Assembly (NCBI GenBank): GCA_026014815.1
Contig: JAOZHP010000076.1
Location: 1-64,000 of the forward strand
DNA from: Candidatus Bathyarchaeota archaeon
GTDB lineage: Archaea; Thermoproteota; Bathyarchaeia; TCS64
Reading direction: 5' to 3'
Length of the DNA stretch: 64,000 nucleotides
Under the pieces are notes generated by a model. The model saw only the letters and a program-made list of their open reading frames with translations, did no database searches and was not told where the DNA came from. Positions 49,321 to 61,584 of the stretch are shown here, one piece after another. The translations under genes and the position numbers were made by a program. Positions within the stretch are counted from its first letter, which is position 1. Each line of letters begins with the position of its first letter.

Positions 49321-52311
49321 TTGTTTCGACTGAATCGCGATTTGAGCAAAGGTAGCAGTCAGGAAGCCACCTACGGCTTTAATCCAGCTACAGCAAAGAC
49401 ACTGTTAATTGTAGTTATGTTAATGCTGAGTAATCCAGTTCCAGCAAGGGGTTTACTCAGCGAACCAAACCTGTCATCTGATTCTGGTGACGTCGGTGAC
49501 CTTGTGCATGTTTATGGAAACGAGGGAGACGTAGGAGGAGGCCTGACTGCTTTGCTCTACTGGGACTCGGTGAAACAGTGGGACGGAACCAAAGGTATCC
49601 TGAATGCCTCTGTCTCGGAGCCCAGTGGATACTATACAATGAGTTTCACGGTCCCCGAGTCAACAGGAGGAAAACATTACCTATGGGTAACCGACGACTT
49701 CACAGGCTCAAAGACCAGTACAGAGTTCACCGTGACACCCTCACTAATAATGGACACCCTTTACCTGACTCCGAGTAACACTGAGACCTTCCTAGGGAAA
49801 GGATTTGGGGGGGATACTCAGGTCACCTTCATGCTTCGCAGACATGTAAGCGAACAGTTCAATGATTGGCCTTCCACCTCCACCTTACAATTAATAGGAA
49901 CAGGGGATGATGTAACCACCCGGTTTACAGGCACGTTGAGTAACCTGCCATTAAAACCAGGCACAGCTCAGGTCACCTGCGATCTTATCACTCTCGCTGA
50001 CACTGGAAACGGGACCATCATTGGGTCTGGTGGCTACGGTGAAATCGATTATGTGACCGGAGATTTCTCCGTCTCGTTTTCCGATCCTCCTTCCTTAGGT
50101 TCAGATATCGACCTCGCGTACGAGTTTTTCGAGGAAGTGGCTAACGAGGTGTATCCACTTGACCGATACACCACAAGCAGCTCGAGGGGAAATTTCATGA
50201 AGGATCTTACCATACCCCAGGTACCATATGGAAGTTACTGGTTCTGCGCCATGGACTCTGTGAACAACACGGAGGTAGTAGCCGTAGAGGTCTCTCCCAT
50301 CGTCAAACTTAGCAAGACTTCGGTTGATACGGGCGACGTTATTCAGGTTCGTGGCGAAGACTTTACCCCAGGCTCATATATCCGTAGTCAGGACATCAAG
50401 CTCTACTCAGAGGAATGGAACGGGAGCTATTGCGCCATCTATAATTACCCTGGCGGGGCAGGGGTCCCCATTGACCCGGATGGGGAGTTCACGATAAATG
50501 TGATCATGCCTAACCCGCCGAAGACAGGTGATTACACGTTACTAGTGAGCGATAGCACTGGAGTAAAAAACGAGAAAACAATAACTGTAAACACACGTGC
50601 GAGCGTCCAACTGTCTGTATCCACCGTTGATGACGAGCACACCATTACAGTGACTGGAAAACACTTTACCAACATCAAGGGTCGACAAGTATCTTTTGAG
50701 CTATGGAACATATCGGGAGATCCCTCGGATGGAATAATCCCCATTGGCGCTGCCACAACAGATGCGTTTGGGTCCTTCACCCAAACCATCTCGATAAGCA
50801 AAGTACAACACCTTCAATACTTGTTCGTGGCCGTTATCGACGAGGACTCGATACAGGCAAGTGAGCCTTTACAGATCACCTCACTAAGCGTGACATTGTA
50901 TACGGAGCAAGGTAAACCTGGAGACGAAGTAAAGTTATCCGGGAACGGCTTCACTAAAAACAGTAACTGGAGCGCCAAACTAAACACCACAACCGTGATC
51001 GAGGCCGATGAGGGAACCACCAACAGCAAGGGACAACTAAGGATAGGATACAAGTCACCATCGTTCACTGTCCCGGAGCTTGAGCTAGGAATCTACAGGT
51101 TAATCGTTACAGATGAGACACTCAAAAGATCCATACAGATACCGTTTACCATTCTTGAGGAAGAACTATCAATAAACACAGAGTACCCTGTCCCAAGGTT
51201 CACGACAGATACGACTTACAAAGAGGGAGAAGCGGTACTATTCAATGCGTCAGAGTCTTCGGACTCAGATGGAATCATAATCTCATATAAATGGGATTTC
51301 GGTGACGGCGATTCATCAACAAAGCCAGTAGCTTATCATACCTTCAATCAAGACGGTATATTCACTGTCTCCCTCACGGTAAAAGACAACAAGAACGCAA
51401 AATCTACTAAAAGTAAAACACTGGTTATAGTGGACTTAGACCCCGCACCAAACTTTGATGCAAGCAAAGAAGAAGGATACAATCCCTTAACAGTAAAGTT
51501 CACGGACACCTCGAGTCTCCACGACCTCGTAACCTACAGGCAATGGGACTTTGGAGATGGCTCCACAAGCCAGCAAGAGAACCCGGAGCACACCTACACA
51601 ATGTTCGGCGTTTACACCGTCAGCCTTACATTAAGAGAGATCGACGGCGATGAGGTTGTCATGGAAAAGACTCAGTTAATAGTTGTTATGGGGGATGACA
51701 ATGCCCCCCCACGAGTTCATACCGTCGAGTCATCCGTCACAGGTAAACAATGCACACTCTACGCAGTTGTCACTGACAACTCTGACATCAAGTCAGTATA
51801 CATCCGGGCTTATGATGGAAACGAGTACGAACTCATAGAAGATTACAATCTACCGGGACTTTACATGGTAACCATCCCATATGTGTCTTCAGAGACGGTT
51901 GATCCTGTCCTGTACGCTATGGATTATAACGGCAACTATGCACAGCAATCAGTAATTCTTCCACCGAGCAGCGACAATGAAACAGTGTCAATTACTCTCA
52001 GCACAGGCTGGAACAGCGTAACACTTGCTCCAGATATCACCTTTGGGTCTATCGAGAGCCTCATAGAGTCTGTTGAATGTTTCGGGTCAATAATCGATGT
52101 TTACGGTTCCGTCGTATATGGCACATCACCACAAGTCAAATCACCATACGTAAAGTCCATCTGGACCATCGACGAGTACCGGGGATACCTGATGTACGAC
52201 CCAGCAACAGGCATAAGCGACTTCGACAGCCTCATAGGCGGAAGAGAGTACTGGGTTTACGTTGACGGCAGCCTCCCTGTGGCCATGGATATACGCCTCG
52301 TTACTAGTTAG
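49321..52311 (+). CDS. Large secreted PKD-repeat surface protein
   Basis: A 996-residue protein. A signal peptide lies around residues 25-45 (KTLLIVVMLMLSNPVPARG). Several Ig-like or IPT-like modules follow (40-610), for example VDTGDVIQVRGEDFTPGS. Two PKD domains are at about 623-705 and 706-790, with the typical YKWDFGDGDSS and RQWDFGDGSTS. The C-terminal domain (890-990) starts with STGWNSVTLAPDI, as in some surface adhesins. No C-terminal membrane helix is visible. The start is TTG. It is the first of five secreted or anchored proteins in a row on the plus strand. Confidence 0.82.
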   Translation: MFRLNRDLSKGSSQEATYGFNPATAKTLLIVVMLMLSNPVPARGLLSEPNLSSDSGDVGDLVHVYGNEGDVGGGLTALLYWDSVKQWDGTKGILNASVSEPSGYYTMSFTVPESTGGKHYLWVTDDFTGSKTSTEFTVTPSLIMDTLYLTPSNTETFLGKGFGGDTQVTFMLRRHVSEQFNDWPSTSTLQLIGTGDDVTTRFTGTLSNLPLKPGTAQVTCDLITLADTGNGTIIGSGGYGEIDYVTGDFSVSFSDPPSLGSDIDLAYEFFEEVANEVYPLDRYTTSSSRGNFMKDLTIPQVPYGSYWFCAMDSVNNTEVVAVEVSPIVKLSKTSVDTGDVIQVRGEDFTPGSYIRSQDIKLYSEEWNGSYCAIYNYPGGAGVPIDPDGEFTINVIMPNPPKTGDYTLLVSDSTGVKNEKTITVNTRASVQLSVSTVDDEHTITVTGKHFTNIKGRQVSFELWNISGDPSDGIIPIGAATTDAFGSFTQTISISKVQHLQYLFVAVIDEDSIQASEPLQITSLSVTLYTEQGKPGDEVKLSGNGFTKNSNWSAKLNTTTVIEADEGTTNSKGQLRIGYKSPSFTVPELELGIYRLIVTDETLKRSIQIPFTILEEELSINTEYPVPRFTTDTTYKEGEAVLFNASESSDSDGIIISYKWDFGDGDSSTKPVAYHTFNQDGIFTVSLTVKDNKNAKSTKSKTLVIVDLDPAPNFDASKEEGYNPLTVKFTDTSSLHDLVTYRQWDFGDGSTSQQENPEHTYTMFGVYTVSLTLREIDGDEVVMEKTQLIVVMGDDNAPPRVHTVESSVTGKQCTLYAVVTDNSDIKSVYIRAYDGNEYELIEDYNLPGLYMVTIPYVSSETVDPVLYAMDYNGNYAQQSVILPPSSDNETVSITLSTGWNSVTLAPDITFGSIESLIESVECFGSIIDVYGSVVYGTSPQVKSPYVKSIWTIDEYRGYLMYDPATGISDFDSLIGGREYWVYVDGSLPVAMDIRLVTS

Positions 52312-52368
52312 TGGCTTCACACACAACATTATACACAGTTTTCAGTCAATACCTGTTGAGTATTCGAC

Positions 52369-53778
52369 TTGAAGACGCATCTAGCTCGTGCCATCACAAT
52401 GCTAGCCATAGTTCTAGGTATGTTTCTCACGTTGACGAGCGTCCATGCGGTGCCTGATCTTCCTCACGCAGTGAGTGGGATTGTCACCATCAACGGTAAA
52501 CCAGTACAGGAAATACTGTTATTGGAGGCCAAGATCAATGGCTCAAGCTACTCAGCGACGTATCTGAAGGAAGGCGAGTTTGGAGTAACGCCCACCTTCA
52601 AAGTGCCCATGGATGACCCTGATACGAGCCTAATAGAAGGAGCACATAACGGTGACCTCATAGAGATCTATCTCGACGGCATCAAGGTCACCGAGCTGCT
52701 GTTCGAGTCAGGGCTCGTATCACGGCTAGTTCTTGATGTCTCTCATATCGCTGAGCTTGGAAACGAGCCCCCTCAAGCGGTTATTGGCCCATTCTCTGAG
52801 GCAGTAAATGGTTACAGCTTTGTTTTGAAGGGAAGCGATTCCTCCGATCCTGATGAAAACTCATTGACTTATAACTGGGACTTTGATAACGGGGGCTCCT
52901 CAAATGAACCTAACCCGGTTCACATCTACCAGTTCCCTGGCACATATAACGTGTCATTAACCGTGACAGACACATATGGAGACAGTGACACCCAGCATAT
53001 CCAGGTAAATGTTCAACGTAAACCAGACCCTGTGTACTGGAAGCTTTATGATGTCTCACTACTGGGTGAGATGAACCATGTACTCGACAGTGACTCAGGG
53101 ATACGGATGGAACTCCTATGCGTGGACAACAACGGTCTTACTCTGTACGAGTATGACAGGGTTTTCCTGACCAACAATCTACCCTACTCATATGAACATG
53201 AATTGTATGGAGTTTCCTTCAGCAATCCAGATGCCACAAGCTGGCCCATATACATGGAGATAGAGATCCCTCAACATTACTCCACGGAGCCGCCTGCCCT
53301 TTACTCATGGATTGATGGAAGATGGACGAAATGTGGGTCATCGGGGTCCATCATCGGTGAGCAGAAGCTCTGGGCTTACTTATATCAAGGCGACATGGGA
53401 GAAGGGATATTCCTAGTTGGCTCAGACCCAGGAGAATATGTCGAGGTCAAAGAGGTCACCGCCACCGTAACCGAGATGAATGATTACCTGATTACTGCAA
53501 AGTTACAGAGCATTGGATACACGGGCGACTACGATGTTTATCTGCGCGTAGATGACGCGCTCATCAGCAAACAGTCAACATATCTTCACTCAGGCCAGCA
53601 AGCAGAAGTAGCGTTTACGGCGAACCTTGGAGGCGGTAGCCACGAAGTTTCTGTCAACGGTCTATCGAAAAACGTAAAGTCCGCGTCCGTCCTTAATTCT
53701 TCATTTATCATTGGGTTAGGATTGGTGCCAATAGTTGCGTTCGGGTTGTTCTCTTCTAGGATAAAAAGAATAATCTAG
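52369..53778 (+). CDS. Membrane-anchored PKD-domain surface protein
   Basis: A 469-residue protein. Its signal peptide is residues 1-28 (MLAIVLGMFLTLTSVHA, core). A region to about 130 is followed by a PKD domain at about 134-214 (LTYNWDFDNGGSSNEP). An unnamed domain then contains YSWIDGRWTKCGSSG, with a region similar to one in the protein at 56764. A CARDB-like domain (about 365-440) precedes the C-terminal membrane helix (IIGLGLVPIVAFGLFSS, about 445-462). It is held on the outer face by this anchor. The start is TTG. Confidence 0.78.
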   Translation: MKTHLARAITMLAIVLGMFLTLTSVHAVPDLPHAVSGIVTINGKPVQEILLLEAKINGSSYSATYLKEGEFGVTPTFKVPMDDPDTSLIEGAHNGDLIEIYLDGIKVTELLFESGLVSRLVLDVSHIAELGNEPPQAVIGPFSEAVNGYSFVLKGSDSSDPDENSLTYNWDFDNGGSSNEPNPVHIYQFPGTYNVSLTVTDTYGDSDTQHIQVNVQRKPDPVYWKLYDVSLLGEMNHVLDSDSGIRMELLCVDNNGLTLYEYDRVFLTNNLPYSYEHELYGVSFSNPDATSWPIYMEIEIPQHYSTEPPALYSWIDGRWTKCGSSGSIIGEQKLWAYLYQGDMGEGIFLVGSDPGEYVEVKEVTATVTEMNDYLITAKLQSIGYTGDYDVYLRVDDALISKQSTYLHSGQQAEVAFTANLGGGSHEVSVNGLSKNVKSASVLNSSFIIGLGLVPIVAFGLFSSRIKRII

Positions 53779-53947
53779 CCCAGTAACATAGTTAATTTCA
53801 GCTATAAACAACGATAATCAGAATAATTAATTTATTTGATTACCAATGTATCAGATATTTTCACACCTTTTATGCACATTTATTTTCTTTCATTTACAGA
53901 AAAGTAAATAACGATGAATCTGAGATACTGTTCAGGAAGGAATCACT

Positions 53948-56674
53948 ATGCAAAATAAACTCAAATTATCACTATACAAATTCATTATGCTGATCACAGC
54001 GTGTTTACTGTGTTCGATCGTTATGGTCGGAGCAGCGACATCCACTGATTTCCCAGTAGAGGTTGACATTAACTCAGGAGCGGATGTCTTCCAGTTTGCA
54101 CGTCACACTGGAAGTGCTACAGAGGGAAACTGGATACTTCTATCCGGGGGTACATCAGTAACAATGCCAACTGTAACACTCATTTATTCCGGTATCTCCA
54201 GTACAAATTATGATAAAGGAGGTAATAACGTCGATATTCAAGCTCTATCAGAGGTAATTGGTGACTCGGTGATTTATCCTTATGCAACTCATCAGATATT
54301 CTCGACAAGTCAGACAATCGATTATACTTTCTACGGTAGAACTAGTCTAGCGACGGATAGTGTTGACGTCAAACTCATCAAAGTCACAGATCCGACTGAC
54401 TACGAGACCGCTGCGTCAGATATCTTCAACGGTGATCCAGCGGCTCTTCAAACTATACTTGATAACCCAGACTATGATACATCAACGACCCTCGATGGTA
54501 ATGGTGACATACTTGGAGGAAGCATCCCGGCACAATCCGCTGGGGACTATATCATGGTAATAATGTGGGATGACGGCACATTGTACAAGATCTACTCTGC
54601 TACTATAGTTGAGGTAGTCGATTATGGATGCACTGTTACAGTACCTACCTCAGTAAGAGAAGGCTATGACTTGGAACTGGATATTACCTTAACAGGCGCC
54701 CCCGCCGGGTCGTACATCTATGGAGCAGCGATAATTAAGGAAACCGAGTATTCTCTCGATCTCGCGGTTACCACCGGTGGCTCGATCGATAGCACAGATG
54801 TCACTGTTAATGGTGCAGCCTTGTTAGAGGGATCTGGTTCATCTTTTGCTCTCTTTGGAGGAGGATTCTCAGATTTGCATCTCGATGACGCCCAGACACT
54901 GTTATCTCAGATGTTTCCATCATCCAGCTACGCGTTAGCGTTCTCAACTACAACCTCAACTAACACATACACGCTCAAACTTACAACTGAAGGACTTGAT
55001 GAAGCTAATTATAAGGTACTAGTAGGTGTCTGGGATACATCAGGCGATCTATTTACAGGAGACCGAATACTTGGATTCGCCGAGGGAACTGTCTACGTTG
55101 ATAAAGTCAGCCTTGGTACCCCTGGCCCACTTGTTCCCCCATTACCTGAACCAGAAGATGTAGAAGAAATGCCTTTAGATGAGGCTGTCGAGACGATTCT
55201 GGGATTATCCACTGAAGATGCCGCGGATATAATCGATGAACTCAGCGACGAAAAAGCCGCAGAGATCATAGAGGAACTCGACACTGAAACAGCAGTCGAT
55301 ATCATAGAGGAAGTCTCCGAGGAGACAGCGAAAGCTATCATTGAAAACATTGATGAAGAGACTGCAGCAGAGATTCTTGAGCAACTCGACGAGGAAACTG
55401 CAGTAGATCTCATCGTTGCACAGGAGACTGAGAAAGCCGCAGATATAGTTGAACAGATGAATGCTACTGATGCCGCTGAGATCATCGAAGCTGGAGCCGA
55501 TGAACCTGAATCTTTCGATGCCTTTACTGACATCCTAAATGAAATGGACGAGGAGGCGACAGCTGATATTCTATTGGAGCTCACTATCGAGACCGGTGCT
55601 CAAATTGTCGAGGAAATGGCTACTAAAGACTTGACGGCAGCTGCGGAACGTGTTGAAGCCGCGGTTAAGAAACGGCTTGCCGAGACTGATCCAGAGTTAG
55701 CTGCTGAGGTAATGGCGAAAGTCATTGATACCTTGGAAAATGTCTCAGTCGAGTCATTGGTTGACTTGTTCGTCACAATCGCTAATCTACCTGCAACGCC
55801 TTCAACTGTGGCAGATGTCTTTGAGGCGATGTCTATATCCAAGACCCTTGAGGTCATCTCGTCTTGGGTGGATGTTGGGTTCGAGGAAGAACTGGCCCTA
55901 GTATTCAGTTACCTGACACCTGATACACTTGAAGGAATCTACCTAGGGATGGCAGAAGCTGAAAGAACTGTTCTCTATCCATACCTAGATACAGCCACGG
56001 TTGCAGCTCTACCCGCATTAGGCGAATTGCAAGTTGAGTTATCCGTTAACCCAGAGTCAGTAGAGCCGGGAGACGATGTCACGATAACCGCTGAACTCAC
56101 CAACATAGGAGACGAAACCGGAGACTATACGATAACACTGAATGTGGATGGTGAGGAAACTGATGCGGAGATCATAACTCTGGCACCGGACGAATCCACG
56201 ACACTAACATGGACAATATCAAGAGACACGCCTGGAAGCTACACAGTTGATGTAGCTGGTGAGGCAACCGAGTTCACAGTTGAGGTACCTCTATCGCCCG
56301 CCGAGTTCCAGATCTCGGGATTGACAGTGAACCCCTCAACAGTCGAGTCCGGAGAGGACGTGACTGTTACAGTTACTGTCGAGAACGTCGGTGAACTATT
56401 GGGTACATATGAAGTCGAGGTAATGCTAGACGGCGTAAAAGTTGACGAGACATCTGGCCCACTCTCCGGAGAAAGCGAGACTTCTGTTACCTTTACAGTT
56501 TCTTCTGACGAGACAGGCACTCACACGGTAGCTGTCGATGGGCTATCGGCTCAGTTCAGCGTGGAAGAACCACCAGAGCCACCGGCACCATCATTCCCGT
56601 GGATACCCGTAGCTGTTGGTTTAATAGTTGTAGCCGCAATAGCGTTCTACTTCTATAACCAGCGGACTCAGTAA
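53948..56674 (+). CDS. Surface protein with MgtE-N-like helical repeats and CARDB domains
   Basis: This 908-residue protein has a signal peptide at about residues 12-30. A beta-rich region runs to about 400. A helical repeat region of about 15-residue units follows (about 405-545), for example DEKAAEIIEELDTETAVDII and EETAAEILEQLDEETA. The repeat has the consensus E-x-A-A-x-I-I-E-x-L-D and looks like the MgtE N-terminal superhelix. Two CARDB-like domains follow at about 695-785 and 786-875 (VNPESVEPGDDVTITAEL and VNPSTVESGEDVTVTVTV). The protein ends in a membrane helix. The region may act as an extracellular helical scaffold. Confidence 0.82.
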   Translation: MQNKLKLSLYKFIMLITACLLCSIVMVGAATSTDFPVEVDINSGADVFQFARHTGSATEGNWILLSGGTSVTMPTVTLIYSGISSTNYDKGGNNVDIQALSEVIGDSVIYPYATHQIFSTSQTIDYTFYGRTSLATDSVDVKLIKVTDPTDYETAASDIFNGDPAALQTILDNPDYDTSTTLDGNGDILGGSIPAQSAGDYIMVIMWDDGTLYKIYSATIVEVVDYGCTVTVPTSVREGYDLELDITLTGAPAGSYIYGAAIIKETEYSLDLAVTTGGSIDSTDVTVNGAALLEGSGSSFALFGGGFSDLHLDDAQTLLSQMFPSSSYALAFSTTTSTNTYTLKLTTEGLDEANYKVLVGVWDTSGDLFTGDRILGFAEGTVYVDKVSLGTPGPLVPPLPEPEDVEEMPLDEAVETILGLSTEDAADIIDELSDEKAAEIIEELDTETAVDIIEEVSEETAKAIIENIDEETAAEILEQLDEETAVDLIVAQETEKAADIVEQMNATDAAEIIEAGADEPESFDAFTDILNEMDEEATADILLELTIETGAQIVEEMATKDLTAAAERVEAAVKKRLAETDPELAAEVMAKVIDTLENVSVESLVDLFVTIANLPATPSTVADVFEAMSISKTLEVISSWVDVGFEEELALVFSYLTPDTLEGIYLGMAEAERTVLYPYLDTATVAALPALGELQVELSVNPESVEPGDDVTITAELTNIGDETGDYTITLNVDGEETDAEIITLAPDESTTLTWTISRDTPGSYTVDVAGEATEFTVEVPLSPAEFQISGLTVNPSTVESGEDVTVTVTVENVGELLGTYEVEVMLDGVKVDETSGPLSGESETSVTFTVSSDETGTHTVAVDGLSAQFSVEEPPEPPAPSFPWIPVAVGLIVVAAIAFYFYNQRTQ

Positions 56675-56763
56675 ACATCATTTCCATTTTTTCTTACTTT
56701 ATACCATAAACAGTATTACGTTGTTGTGAAATCCTCTAATTTTTTAACTACACACTCGTTCAT

Positions 56764-59031
56764 ATGTTCAGAGATTCGGTCGAAATGAAAAAAATCATAA
56801 TTTTGATTTTAATCTGGCATTTTATAATACCTGGTGTATTTGGGGTTGTTTCATCAGTCGATTACTCTCCAAGCTCTCCAACACAAGGAGACACTCTGAA
56901 CATCAATATACTGGCATCAGCAAACGAAGAGGTAGATATCACAATCGTGTTCGAAAAAGAAGTACCCGTCGAGAATGGTGGATACAAATACGAATTATTT
57001 GATGTACTCATCCCACAACGCCCTAACAAGTTCTCCGTCAAAGCTACAGGTGTCGATAACTTGGTTGTAGCCGTTAGGATGATGGGGATCTGGGTCAGTC
57101 TGAATAAGGACGCCTCTGGTGGTGTAGCCACGATATCTCAGAGTAATATCCCCTCTGATCACTACGATACACAGATCAAAGGAGACGCTGCAGTGGGCCA
57201 ATCAACTGTCCACCTAAAAATAACGGCTCAAACCACAGTGACAACTGAATCAGATGGTCATTACACTTTTTATTACGATACTAGTAGCCTGCCTCCAGGA
57301 ACTTTCACCGCAAATGTCGGAGGCGTCACGAAGACATTGACCTTAAAGTCTGCTAGTTCCTCATCATCAGGAGGAACTCCGACAATTCTTCCCCCAGTAG
57401 CGAGGTTTCAACACAATGGATCGCTCTACGTTAATGACTCGATAATTTTTGACGCCTCAGACTCATCTAGAGGAACTGGGAGTATCGTTTCGTATTCATG
57501 GGACTTTGGGGATGGAACGACAGGATCAGGCGAAACAATTTCTCACGTGTTCAATACCATCAAAACATACGCAGTCACACTTACCGTGAAGGACTCCCTA
57601 AACCAAGTAAGCACTATAACTAGTTCACTTGATATCGGGTTGAGACCGAATGAATTTCCCATTGCTGTTGCAGGGTCTTCACGTACAGCTTTCACGGGGC
57701 AGAACTTGACTTTTAACGGACATAGGTCCGTTGATCCCGATGGAGATATAATTTCCTATCTCTGGGAATTCGATGACGGAACCATATCCACCAATGGTCT
57801 CGCAGAACATGTCTTTCTGATCCCTGGGAGATACAACGTAACTTTAACAGTTACAGATGATCGTCATGACTCCTCAACAAACCAAATAGAGATCACGGTT
57901 GTTGAGCCGCCGTCCCCAATCTCTAATGAAGTACAGACTAGATTGAGCATGAATAATAACTTGGTAGAGGCTCTGGGAGTGAAACTTGTCTTGAACACAA
58001 CGAGCGAGGTGAATGTTCTCCTTTACGAGTACACATCTAACCCTCACCCTCAAGTGGAGTTACCTAGTTACACCATCGGTCCAGTGATTGATGTAAGTGT
58101 AAGTGACCCAGACGCGGTACAATGGCCAGTATACTTCGAGTTGAGTTATAGTGGCATGAACGTCACTGAGGCATTGGAGATGGTTCTTGGACTATATTAT
58201 TACGAGGATGAAACATGGCATCGATGTGACAGCACTGGGGCATACCCAGAGAGAGATGTCGTTTGGGCTTTCATGACCCGAGAAGAGATGTCAGGTAGCC
58301 CTGTTCTTATCGGTGAGGTTGACCTACTTCCAGTCTTCAATGTATCTGATTTGGTGTATACTCCAGAGTCACCCGAAGTCGGTGACTTGATTCTGATAAA
58401 TGTGAAGGTTACGAACACAGGTGATAAACCTGAAGATGCTATTGTGTTGCTTGAGATAAATGATGAACCTGTCAATTCATCTATGATTTATCTTCATCCA
58501 TCTGAGACCGTGGAACTTGAGTTCCATCACACACCAGCAGATATCGGTGAAATGACTCTACGAGTAGATGATCTTACCCAAACTTTAGTGATTAATCCGA
58601 GAACATATCCTGATCTAGTCGTTAAACAATCATCCATCCCTGACGAGGTACTACCTTCCGAGGCATTTTCTATGGTTTTTTGGGTAACTAATCAAGGAGA
58701 TAAACCATCTGACTCTTTTGTCGTTAAATTAACGGTCAATGACTTGATTCTGGGTTCAAAGAGAATTCAGAGTTTAGATGTAGGTGAGGAAATTGAGGTT
58801 TCTTTTAATTGGGTCTCTACGATAACAGGTGAATTTTCGGGGAGCCTTGACTTGGACATAAATGGAGACGTGGAGGAAACAATCGAGGATAATAATGCGT
58901 TCAAGTTTTCTATCGCAGTCACTCAACCTTCAAATGGAAATTTTCAATATCTCTATGGTGTCGTTTTGATTATGCTTCTTGTTCTCGCCTGGAAGATATA
59001 TCCTTACCTTAAGGAAATAATTATAAGGTAA
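56764..59031 (+). CDS. Membrane-anchored surface protein with PKD and CARDB-like domains
   Basis: A 755-residue protein with a signal peptide near residues 8-28 (KKIIILILIWHFIIPGVFG). Two PKD domains lie at about 212-296 and 297-380 (YSWDFGDGTTGSG and YLWEFDDGTISTN). A domain shared with the protein at 52369 (VSVSDPDAVQWPVYFELSYS and YYYEDETWHRCDSTGAY) spans about 385-520. Two CARDB-like domains follow (525-710). A membrane helix ends the protein (YGVVLIMLLVLAWKIYPYL). Starting at ATG 56785 (residue 8) is equally likely. It is probably one of a group of cell-surface proteins. Confidence 0.8.
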   Translation: MFRDSVEMKKIIILILIWHFIIPGVFGVVSSVDYSPSSPTQGDTLNINILASANEEVDITIVFEKEVPVENGGYKYELFDVLIPQRPNKFSVKATGVDNLVVAVRMMGIWVSLNKDASGGVATISQSNIPSDHYDTQIKGDAAVGQSTVHLKITAQTTVTTESDGHYTFYYDTSSLPPGTFTANVGGVTKTLTLKSASSSSSGGTPTILPPVARFQHNGSLYVNDSIIFDASDSSRGTGSIVSYSWDFGDGTTGSGETISHVFNTIKTYAVTLTVKDSLNQVSTITSSLDIGLRPNEFPIAVAGSSRTAFTGQNLTFNGHRSVDPDGDIISYLWEFDDGTISTNGLAEHVFLIPGRYNVTLTVTDDRHDSSTNQIEITVVEPPSPISNEVQTRLSMNNNLVEALGVKLVLNTTSEVNVLLYEYTSNPHPQVELPSYTIGPVIDVSVSDPDAVQWPVYFELSYSGMNVTEALEMVLGLYYYEDETWHRCDSTGAYPERDVVWAFMTREEMSGSPVLIGEVDLLPVFNVSDLVYTPESPEVGDLILINVKVTNTGDKPEDAIVLLEINDEPVNSSMIYLHPSETVELEFHHTPADIGEMTLRVDDLTQTLVINPRTYPDLVVKQSSIPDEVLPSEAFSMVFWVTNQGDKPSDSFVVKLTVNDLILGSKRIQSLDVGEEIEVSFNWVSTITGEFSGSLDLDINGDVEETIEDNNAFKFSIAVTQPSNGNFQYLYGVVLIMLLVLAWKIYPYLKEIIIR

Positions 59032-59053
59032 TTTTTCTCACCGGATTTTCTGA

Positions 59054-59284
59054 TCATGCGTCGTCTTGCTTCTGCTCGATGAGGTTTTTCATTATCTTTA
59101 TGTTCTTATTCAGGAGGTTTTTCTGTTCCTCAAGTTCCTTCAGCTTCTTCTCGATGTCTGCCTTGGAGGCTTCTTTTCTCATGAACTCGAATATCTCGCT
59201 GTGCCCGTATTTGAGGTGAAAGTCCATCTGCTTCTTTTGGTCTCTTTCGAGTCCACAGAAAGGGCATACGTACATCTTGTCCAA
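59054..59284 (-). CDS. Small zinc-finger and coiled-coil protein
   Basis: A 76-residue protein with a C2H2-type finger at the N-terminus (YVCPFCGLERDQKKQMDFHL plus a following His) and a helix-rich C-terminal half (EKKLKELEEQKNLLNKNIK) that should form a coiled coil. A stand-alone zinc finger of this kind suggests DNA or protein binding. The ATG at 59284 was used. It sits between two surface-protein genes on the opposite strand. Confidence 0.7.
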   Translation of the reverse strand: MDKMYVCPFCGLERDQKKQMDFHLKYGHSEIFEFMRKEASKADIEKKLKELEEQKNLLNKNIKIMKNLIEQKQDDA

Positions 59285-59427
59285 TTATGTCCCCATGTTA
59301 ACTCGATAACTGGCGTTAATAACGGTTCCCCATGAAAATTAAGTAGTTCTGAGATTGGAAAAATGAATTATTAATTGATGTATCCTTATACCATAAACAA
59401 ATTATATAGTTTTATTTCAATCGATGA

Positions 59428-61584
59428 ATGTATATCATGTGTAGATTAAAAAAACTATCAGTTCTACTTATTTTAATTCTATTAATCTACACTCCGAGTT
59501 CTTCATTAAATGTTACAGCAGACTCCGAAGGTACAAAGGTAGGGGGAAGAATACGACGTGATACAATCTGGACAAAGGAAAACAGCCCCTATATCCTTGA
59601 AGACGATATTACCATTTCTTCTGACGCTAGATTAACGATAAAGGAAGGAGTCGTTGTCGAGTTTTCACTGTGGTCTTTGATCATCGATGGCGAACTGAGG
59701 GCTCAAGGAAGCCAGGAAGAAGAAATTATTTTTCGTTTCACCGTGATGCCTTTATCCAGTTACGAACAAGGAAGAATCTATTTTACCTCGAAGAGTCCAC
59801 CATGGAAGGATAATGATTACCGTGGCAGTATTCTGGAGTACGTCGAGATCTATTGTTATGAAAACACCGTCAACTATGGCCTGATCCAAGGGGGCACATT
59901 GAAGATTGATCACGTCTCCATTTACAATGCAGAACCACGCACCCACCTTTACACGATAACAGCCGACGGGCTGATATCTAACAGTCTTTTCGAGGGAGTT
60001 ACTAGAGCAATAAATATGGAGGAAGGAGAGATAATTAATAACGTATTTTTGAATGGTAGTAGTACAGTGATTTCAATAAACAATGGAAAAGTAAAGGATA
60101 ATATTATAGATGGAGGCAAACGAGGAATAAACGTTAAGAATGCACTCATAAGAGATAATCTAATAAACAATATGCTAGATAGAGGCATAAATATAGTAAA
60201 TGAATTTACGCCATACAATTATGAAGAAATCACTCCAATTATCCATAACAACTCAATTATGAATTGTGAAGAACACGCATTATATGTAGCGGGATATTCG
60301 GGCCCAACAATAAGTCAAAACTTAATTATAGAAAACTCGAATGGAATATACTTCAAAGAAGACGCATTCTATAATGGAACTCGACCTAAAGTATATAATA
60401 ATATATTTTATAATAATGATAACAATGTGTATTTTAATCGTGAAGACCCGAGAATTGAGATAAAAATAAAGAATAACTGGTGGATGACAAACGATACGAA
60501 GCTTATTGAGGATAAAATATATTACGAAAATGACGACCCCAGACTAACCGCAGCGCTATACCAGCCTATACTACTAGAGTTACCACTTTATCACCCAAAA
60601 ATATGGTACGAATTCACGCTATTCCCTCCTCCACAAGAAACCCCAGTAAATTCTGTAGTACCTATATCAGGTAAATTGGTCCCCTCACTCGAGACTTTCA
60701 ACATACAAGTATCCTATTCAGGTCCAGAAGGACAAAAAATCTTTAAAGTACTAAACGCCGACCCCTATGGTTACTTCACAGACGACTTCATCCCAAGTTC
60801 AGTAGGTATATGGAATTTTACCGTGACTCCAGACGAAAACGTACTATTCAAGTCAAATGAGAAAAACATGCAGGTCAACGTGACCAAACAGAGCAGCGAT
60901 ATAGACCCGTACATATCCCGCGAAACATACTATGAGGGAGATGAAGTCTTAATTAAAGGAATCATAAACCCAGGTGTACAAGATGCATATATTGCGATCA
61001 ACATCCTAAGACCCGATGGGTCAGAAGAACACGCACAAGCAACAACGGATAACAATGGCGTATACGAAACGAAGTTTACCGGAGACGTCCCCGGTGATTA
61101 CACTGCTACAATCTCATGGCCCGGAACAGACGAAGTGGAGGGTTCTATCACGGAACACGCCATAAACATTCATCCTCTCGGTAAACTAGAAATAGTAATT
61201 CAAGATCCAACAGGGTCCCCAGTTAACGATGTTCTAATTAAATCCATTGAACATCCCATGGATCAAAGCAGCTTATCCGGTACCACTGATGAGAATGGTA
61301 CCCTGCTGTTTAATGGGGTTGTGTTTGGAGATTACATTTTCACCGCTGAAAAACCGGATTACGAAAAAACTTTGTTCAATTCCAGTATCAGTGAAGCCGA
61401 GGTATTAACGATTGAGTATGTCTCCCCAAACAATGATACCAATGTAGACACGCCTTCTATTTCCGATGGAGAAATAGAGCAGGTAAAGGACATACCGTGG
61501 ATCATAGGATGGGTGCCCAGCATAGTCATTGTCTTGTTTATGACTGTTCTATATCTTTTCGTACGCAGAGCAAACAACACCTAA
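59428..61584 (+). CDS. Membrane-anchored right-handed beta-helix protein
   Basis: A 718-residue protein. The signal peptide is residues 5-31 (LKKLSVLLILILLIYTPSSS). A right-handed beta-helix spans about 55-345, with repeat-like turns of the type NNVFLNGSSTVISINNG and INNMLDRGINIVN (NosD/pectate-lyase-like). Ig-like and carboxypeptidase-regulatory-like domains follow (LEIVIQDPTGSPVNDVLIKS near residue 588). The C-terminal membrane helix (about 688-708) anchors it. The base composition of the beta-helix part is notably AT-rich compared with its neighbours. ATG at 59437 is an alternative start. Confidence 0.78.
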   Translation: MYIMCRLKKLSVLLILILLIYTPSSSLNVTADSEGTKVGGRIRRDTIWTKENSPYILEDDITISSDARLTIKEGVVVEFSLWSLIIDGELRAQGSQEEEIIFRFTVMPLSSYEQGRIYFTSKSPPWKDNDYRGSILEYVEIYCYENTVNYGLIQGGTLKIDHVSIYNAEPRTHLYTITADGLISNSLFEGVTRAINMEEGEIINNVFLNGSSTVISINNGKVKDNIIDGGKRGINVKNALIRDNLINNMLDRGINIVNEFTPYNYEEITPIIHNNSIMNCEEHALYVAGYSGPTISQNLIIENSNGIYFKEDAFYNGTRPKVYNNIFYNNDNNVYFNREDPRIEIKIKNNWWMTNDTKLIEDKIYYENDDPRLTAALYQPILLELPLYHPKIWYEFTLFPPPQETPVNSVVPISGKLVPSLETFNIQVSYSGPEGQKIFKVLNADPYGYFTDDFIPSSVGIWNFTVTPDENVLFKSNEKNMQVNVTKQSSDIDPYISRETYYEGDEVLIKGIINPGVQDAYIAINILRPDGSEEHAQATTDNNGVYETKFTGDVPGDYTATISWPGTDEVEGSITEHAINIHPLGKLEIVIQDPTGSPVNDVLIKSIEHPMDQSSLSGTTDENGTLLFNGVVFGDYIFTAEKPDYEKTLFNSSISEAEVLTIEYVSPNNDTNVDTPSISDGEIEQVKDIPWIIGWVPSIVIVLFMTVLYLFVRRANNT

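Follow-up and report, generated by a model that had tools for sequence, protein, structure and literature searches.

A predicted MgtE/FliG-type superhelix as a module of putative surface proteins in Bathyarchaeia

MgtE_N is named and annotated as the intracellular domain of a Mg2+ transporter, and the locus studied here raises the question of what a helical domain of this kind might do in an archaeal protein that appears to be built for the cell surface. The gene lies within the window, i.e. the whole 64,000-nucleotide stretch of Candidatus Bathyarchaeota DNA that was analysed, at 53948-56674 on the + strand; it starts with ATG at 53948, ends with a stop codon at 56672-56674 and encodes a product of 908 amino acids, exactly as the first-pass annotation had delimited it. 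In order, and all on the + strand, the protein comprises a signal peptide (53948-54037; Kyte-Doolittle value 2.64 with the peak at residues 12-28, and probable cleavage near residue 30), a TIGR04279 domain (54131-55042, residues 62-365), MgtE_N-like helical repeats (55169-55612, residues 408-555), a conserved helical cap with the motif LPxTPSTVA (55613-56017, residues 556-690), two CARDB domains and a C-terminal membrane anchor with a short basic tail (56600-56656, about residues 885-903). The first CARDB domain (56027-56257, residues 694-770) forms a beta sandwich in the structural model described below, while the limits of the second, CARDB-like domain (56306-56566, residues 787-873) were taken from the model strands. 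Signal peptide and anchor are hydropathy calls. The signal peptide, repeats, CARDB domains and anchor had all been recognized at first pass; the TIGR04279 domain and the conserved cap had been overlooked.

Three of these assignments pass the profile cut-offs: MgtE_N (PF03448; E 5.4e-23, 81.9 bits against a cut-off of 25.9, in three stretches with the best at residues 407-476), CARDB (E 6.3e-15, 55.7 bits against 22.7, in two stretches) and the NCBIfam family TIGR04279 (E 2.1e-59, 201.4 bits against 35), the last also being recovered in the genome search. FliG_M (23.4 bits, E 7.1e-5, against a cut-off of 25) and FliG_C (13.7 against 23.3) fell below theirs. The 22 families that Pfam listed for it at E values of up to 1 included neither CBS nor MgtE (PF01769), and for TIGR04279 no paper was found in the literature searched.

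The repeats had originally been described as about nine copies of a roughly 15-residue unit containing ExAAxIIExL. The motif is indeed found, but the period is 12 residues: self-identity within the repeats reaches 50 of 143 positions for a lag of 12 and 44 of 131 for a lag of 24 but 11 of 140 for a lag of 15, and in 2000 shuffles no count across lags 5-39 exceeded 32. These counts, together with the register, rule out a 15-residue period. Tandem Repeats Finder reported a 36-nt tandem array in the DNA. Because eight units in strict register (residues 420-515) are preceded by one degenerate unit, the copy number of about nine holds. In one relative (L023) the repeats are 55% self-identical at lag 24, and by this sequence pattern they are apparently still expanding, while in two others (P0002 and L024) self-identity did not surpass that of all shuffles.

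To the repeats and cap together, hereafter the module, AlphaFold2 (residues 392-694, seven aligned sequences) assigned 22 helices with a mean pLDDT of 93.5 and a pTM of 0.85. In the model a single solenoid spans repeats and cap, and the helices in the repeats are mostly ~10 residues long with a 12-residue step. When the top Foldseek chains were superposed with VIA-align, the highest ranks went to FliG 4fhr_B (Z 9.8, 2.5 Å over 96 residues), MgtE 8gpv (Z 9.5, 2.5 Å over 120) and MgtE 5x9g_C (Z 9.5, 2.5 Å over 123), with MgtE 5x9h_B (Z 9.0, 1.9 Å over 103) and FliG 3ajc (1.6 Å over 93) also superposing closely. Of note, Z values of this size, here obtained with a predicted model, are common among helical repeats and on their own are weak evidence; therefore, we also placed weight on the sequence profile matches, in which a PDB profile search with the module retrieved FliG 3usw (9.3e-6) and MgtE 2oux (1.6e-4). 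The predicted structure thus supports an MgtE/FliG-type superhelix of short helices, the fold proposed at first pass on the basis of a likeness to MgtE_N. A coiled coil, which had been named as the outcome that would speak against this fold, is excluded on the model because there is no long coiled-coil helix in it. Importin-alpha and designed armadillo proteins covered most of the module, the former at a similar Z, but at an rmsd of at least 6 Å (6 to 10 Å for importin-alpha), and on the model we take this likeness as one of shared general shape. The resemblance to MgtE and FliG may reflect common descent or a convergence among repeats of short helices. The full-length model was weak (pLDDT 72.3, pTM 0.41), with the TIGR04279 part largely at low confidence; a fold search with it mainly matched CARDB sandwiches, and complement and macroglobulin entries were discounted at TM-scores near 0.1.

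The cap is the better conserved part of the module. Among the 21 pairs compared in the module alignment, which are not independent, 20 show a higher identity in the cap than in the repeats (e.g. 55% for the cap and 30% for the repeats with L025), and LPxTP is kept in all 15 cap proteins found. Beyond its first part, which holds the third MgtE_N stretch, no Pfam family covers residues 556-690. In one relative (G162), an MgtE_N match at 1.7e-6 lies inside the cap. From alignment and model, we read the cap as a probable divergent, specialized continuation of the MgtE_N-like fold.

Using the cap profile, we found the module in 12 of the 256 genomes of the class, in 15 proteins, two of which belong to the window's own genome. 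The second of these, P0002 (2171 amino acids, contig C61), combines Amidase_6, LGFP and PKD domains with MgtE_N repeats, the cap, two CARDB domains and an anchor. It is encoded at L006:4006-10521, its Amidase_6 and LGFP domains are not expected in an archaeon, and a few kb away (L006:13572-17298) lie genes that, as we presume, resemble those for phage portal and head proteins. With regard to a viral origin or carriage, two scans of viral contigs gave no relative. Other architectures join the module and TIGR04279 to a different C-terminal part with a coiled-coil-like stretch (judged by eye) and an anchor (L026, L027), place CARDB on either side of the module (L071), or provide it with an N-terminal region rich in tyrosine and glycine (L071-L073, L075, L076). 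A YGYGYG run in this N-terminal region of L071, L072, L073, L075 and L076 is common to several families of the class. TIGR04279 itself is present in five of the 256 genomes; four of these encode it together with the module in a single frame, and the fifth (G254) has a frame that meets the contig end directly after a proline linker, where repeats would start. Upstream of the latter gene, at L116:1001-3450, are genes that we take to be like those for a MoxR ATPase and a DUF58-type protein. All four named relatives are Candidatus Bathyarchaeota, one of them (L024/G020) in the window's own genus, in support of the archaeal origin assigned at first pass. In the phylum as a whole, the cap profile matched 6 of 398 genomes, one being the window's own; the match in G438 (5.7e-8) is to a 103-residue frame at a contig end and the other four have values of 4.5e-4 to 6.1e-4, leaving an occurrence outside the class unproven. 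A locus titled as bacterial (L028; 28% over 89 residues) was discarded as repeat similarity. Several contigs (L020/L024, L023, L070, L116, L074) end within or right at the module repeats. Therefore, assembly probably breaks off at tandem repeats, and the number of genomes counted with the module is probably too low. The start of contig L020/L024 and the end of L116 translate to RQRQMCIRD and VSYTHLTLPTN, which we take to be read-through of sequencing adapters. Being this rare, the module is not a general envelope part.

The 908-residue protein had been suggested to be extracellular, and this location is well supported by the signal peptide, the CARDB and PKD company and the membrane anchor. 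Among the cap proteins, a hydrophobic N-terminal segment is present in all 12 for which the N-terminus is available and a hydrophobic C-terminal segment in 11 of 14, L072, L074 and L075 being without one. We considered that the hydrophobic ends might not be a signal peptide and an anchor and that the MgtE_N-like part might be cytoplasmic: the topology rests on hydropathy and domain company, and elsewhere in the phylum MgtE_N mostly belongs to transporters, with 8 of 10 control MgtE_N frames from other genomes, a hand-picked part of those found, carrying both CBS and MgtE. The recurrence of CARDB, PKD and LGFP domains beside the module across many architectures and the uniformly hydrophobic N-termini argue against such a mis-assignment, which we consider highly improbable. 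Of the two remaining control frames, one has 353 residues and a match below the threshold, and the other encodes a PRC/MgtE_N/CBS protein. We note that among the scanned MgtE_N proteins some archaeal MgtE transporters carry an ACT domain at the N-terminus, and that the protein combining a PRC barrel with MgtE_N and CBS has no channel part (L089, L091, L092, L077).

An outside location had also been proposed to be a new use of the fold. As such it is not new because MotE, FlgY and FlbB carry an MgtE_N domain in the bacterial periplasm: MotE is described as periplasmic, the ARM-like domain at the C-terminus of FlgY and FlbB is MgtE_N by Pfam definition (PMC13023049), and a FlgY-type superhelix resembling MgtE and FliG is reported (PMC11870540). 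What appears to be new is the archaeal surface setting; in the literature searched, which covered few subscription journals, there was no prior report of an MgtE_N-type module in archaeal surface proteins, nor any paper naming an MgtE_N domain together with archaea. Therefore, we regard the module as a variant of a known fold family.

The first-pass annotation had further suggested that the repeats might act in a cation-dependent manner given their many acidic residues. D91, D95 and E59 of MgtE are located in its N domain, which contributes ligands to Mg2+ sites. According to the structural report, the Mg2+ sites of the cytoplasmic part of MgtE include these three residues, and each Mg2+ bridges two domains, CBS and plug included (PMC5882242). 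Because these partner domains are absent here, Mg2+ sensing by homology is ruled out. Sensing or storing Mg2+ or Ca2+ outside the cell by means of the acidic repeats themselves would be consistent with their composition in the 908-residue protein (34% D+E, 2% K+R, net charge -32 per 100 residues). However, this acidity is not conserved, ranging from -9 to -32 per 100 residues over nine repeat stretches of relatives, and it is general to the protein because the CARDB part is also very acidic (-21 per 100); on balance we consider a role in cation binding improbable and the suggested cation dependence unsupported. In the window's genome, CorA gave no match and MgtE_N matched the two surface proteins only. 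This assembly is 93% complete and the search covered CorA and MgtE_N only, and we did not build on a loss of transporters in favour of the module protein.

The gene is the third of five surface-type genes in a row on the + strand (49321-61584), which encode in order a PKD protein, a PKD protein, the module protein, a PKD plus CARDB protein and a NosD/CarboxypepD_reg protein; the scanned genes upstream are housekeeping genes, e.g. for alanine racemase and a DEAD helicase. The neighbour directly downstream (56764-59031, +; two PKD and two CARDB domains by Pfam) recurs in this position. In G020 a homologue with 37% identity over 676 residues directly follows the module gene, and in G006, G008 and G254 a homologue of its N-terminal domain does so (40-47% over about 149 residues); that neighbour itself carries the cap module in G006 and G008 and repeats in G254. 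The short contig of G025 holds no homologue of 56764-59031. The surface genes at 52369-53778 and 56764-59031 share a common 300-residue region with 31% identity; therefore, the sequences suggest that the cluster may have grown by duplication.

We propose a working model that builds on the observed order of the domains, the period of the repeats, the predicted fold, the pattern of conservation, the presence of the module in several architectures and the conserved gene pair. In it the module is a length-variable rigid stalk with the cap as a docking face for partner surface proteins, and we infer the stalk, the docking and the partner with about even confidence. In this model, the C-terminal membrane helix would anchor the protein at the cell surface, with the two CARDB domains adjoining the membrane and, above them, about 22 short helices forming a single uninterrupted ARM-like superhelix. 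The cap would adjoin the CARDB domains, the fast-evolving 12-residue units would lie further out as a rigid stalk of adjustable length, and the TIGR04279 domain would form the tip. The LPxTPSTVA-containing cap would serve as docking face for an envelope partner, for which the co-encoded neighbour (56764-59031) would be the likeliest candidate. We suggest a spacer role for the repeats because they vary in sequence and number and appear to be still expanding, and a binding face in the cap because it is constrained; moreover, FlgY and FliG use ARM-like stacks in protein-protein assembly (PMC11870540). Against this model, cap conservation could reflect folding rather than docking, the module is rare, the short contig of G025 shows no neighbour homologue, and three cap proteins are without the C-terminal hydrophobic segment.

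Two other arrangements were considered. The superhelices of adjacent molecules might stack, either by their ends or along their sides, and thereby build a lattice or ring as a surface array. Such an array would be in line with the FliG/MgtE-type fold of the module, with the ring formed by FlgY ARM-like domains and the C-ring formation driven by those of FliG, as reported, with the paired adjacent surface genes in G006, G008 and G254 that each carry a cap or repeat module, and with the presence of a second module protein in the window's own genome. Yet the module is found in few genomes of the class, and a variable number and sequence of repeats fits a stalk better than a lattice contact, making this arrangement unlikely in our view. 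Alternatively, the repeats might merely lift TIGR04279 off the membrane, with the cap as the end of the fold and devoid of a partner. The variable and expanding repeats would suit such a simple spacer, as would the different N-terminal domains that the same module bears, but it would leave both the conservation of the cap, with its invariant LPxTP, and the maintenance of the neighbouring gene pair unaccounted for, and we regard it as rather doubtful.

Comparison with known systems helps to place the module. With MgtE_N (PF03448) of the MgtE Mg2+ channel it shares the 12-residue short-helix pattern, a Pfam score above the cut-off and the superposition at 1.9-2.5 Å over 103-123 residues; in contrast to MgtE, it is extracellular, is without CBS, plug and MgtE channel part, and shows several tandem matches instead of one full domain, the MgtE N domain having about half as many helices as the 22 of the module. 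The middle and C-terminal ARM-like domains of FliG are alike in fold (3ajc) and profile (3usw), whereas FliG is a cytoplasmic rotor protein and the FliG_M match of the module is under the Pfam cut-off. Archaeal CARDB/PKD cell-surface proteins have the same signal peptide, beta-sandwich domains and C-terminal anchor, to which the module protein adds an all-helical superhelix among the beta domains. The periplasmic E-ring proteins MotE, FlgY and FlbB use an MgtE_N/ARM-like domain outside the cytoplasm for assembly (PMC13023049, PMC11870540), but they are bacterial and flagellar and have a long helix plus a four-membered superhelix, while the module is archaeal, CARDB-anchored and composed of 22 helices. 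In the model, no long helix precedes the superhelix, and the neighbouring genes are surface and housekeeping genes rather than flagellar ones.

In the module family the MgtE/FliG fold is seen as a mobile module of archaeal surface proteins, and the family's conserved helical cap is a segment without a Pfam name in widespread, mostly uncultured archaea with a little-studied envelope. Together with MotE, FlgY and FlbB, the module argues that the fold is a general assembly scaffold and that the annotation of such proteins as MgtE misleads. As a more speculative extension, which we hold to be improbable as it stands, some Bathyarchaeia may have taken a FliG/MgtE-type ARM-like unit outside the cell, where adjacent surface proteins would interlock via their superhelices and LPxTP caps as the joint of an array. 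If true, this would be the cell-envelope counterpart, in an archaeon, of the principle of the flagellar C-ring and E-ring.
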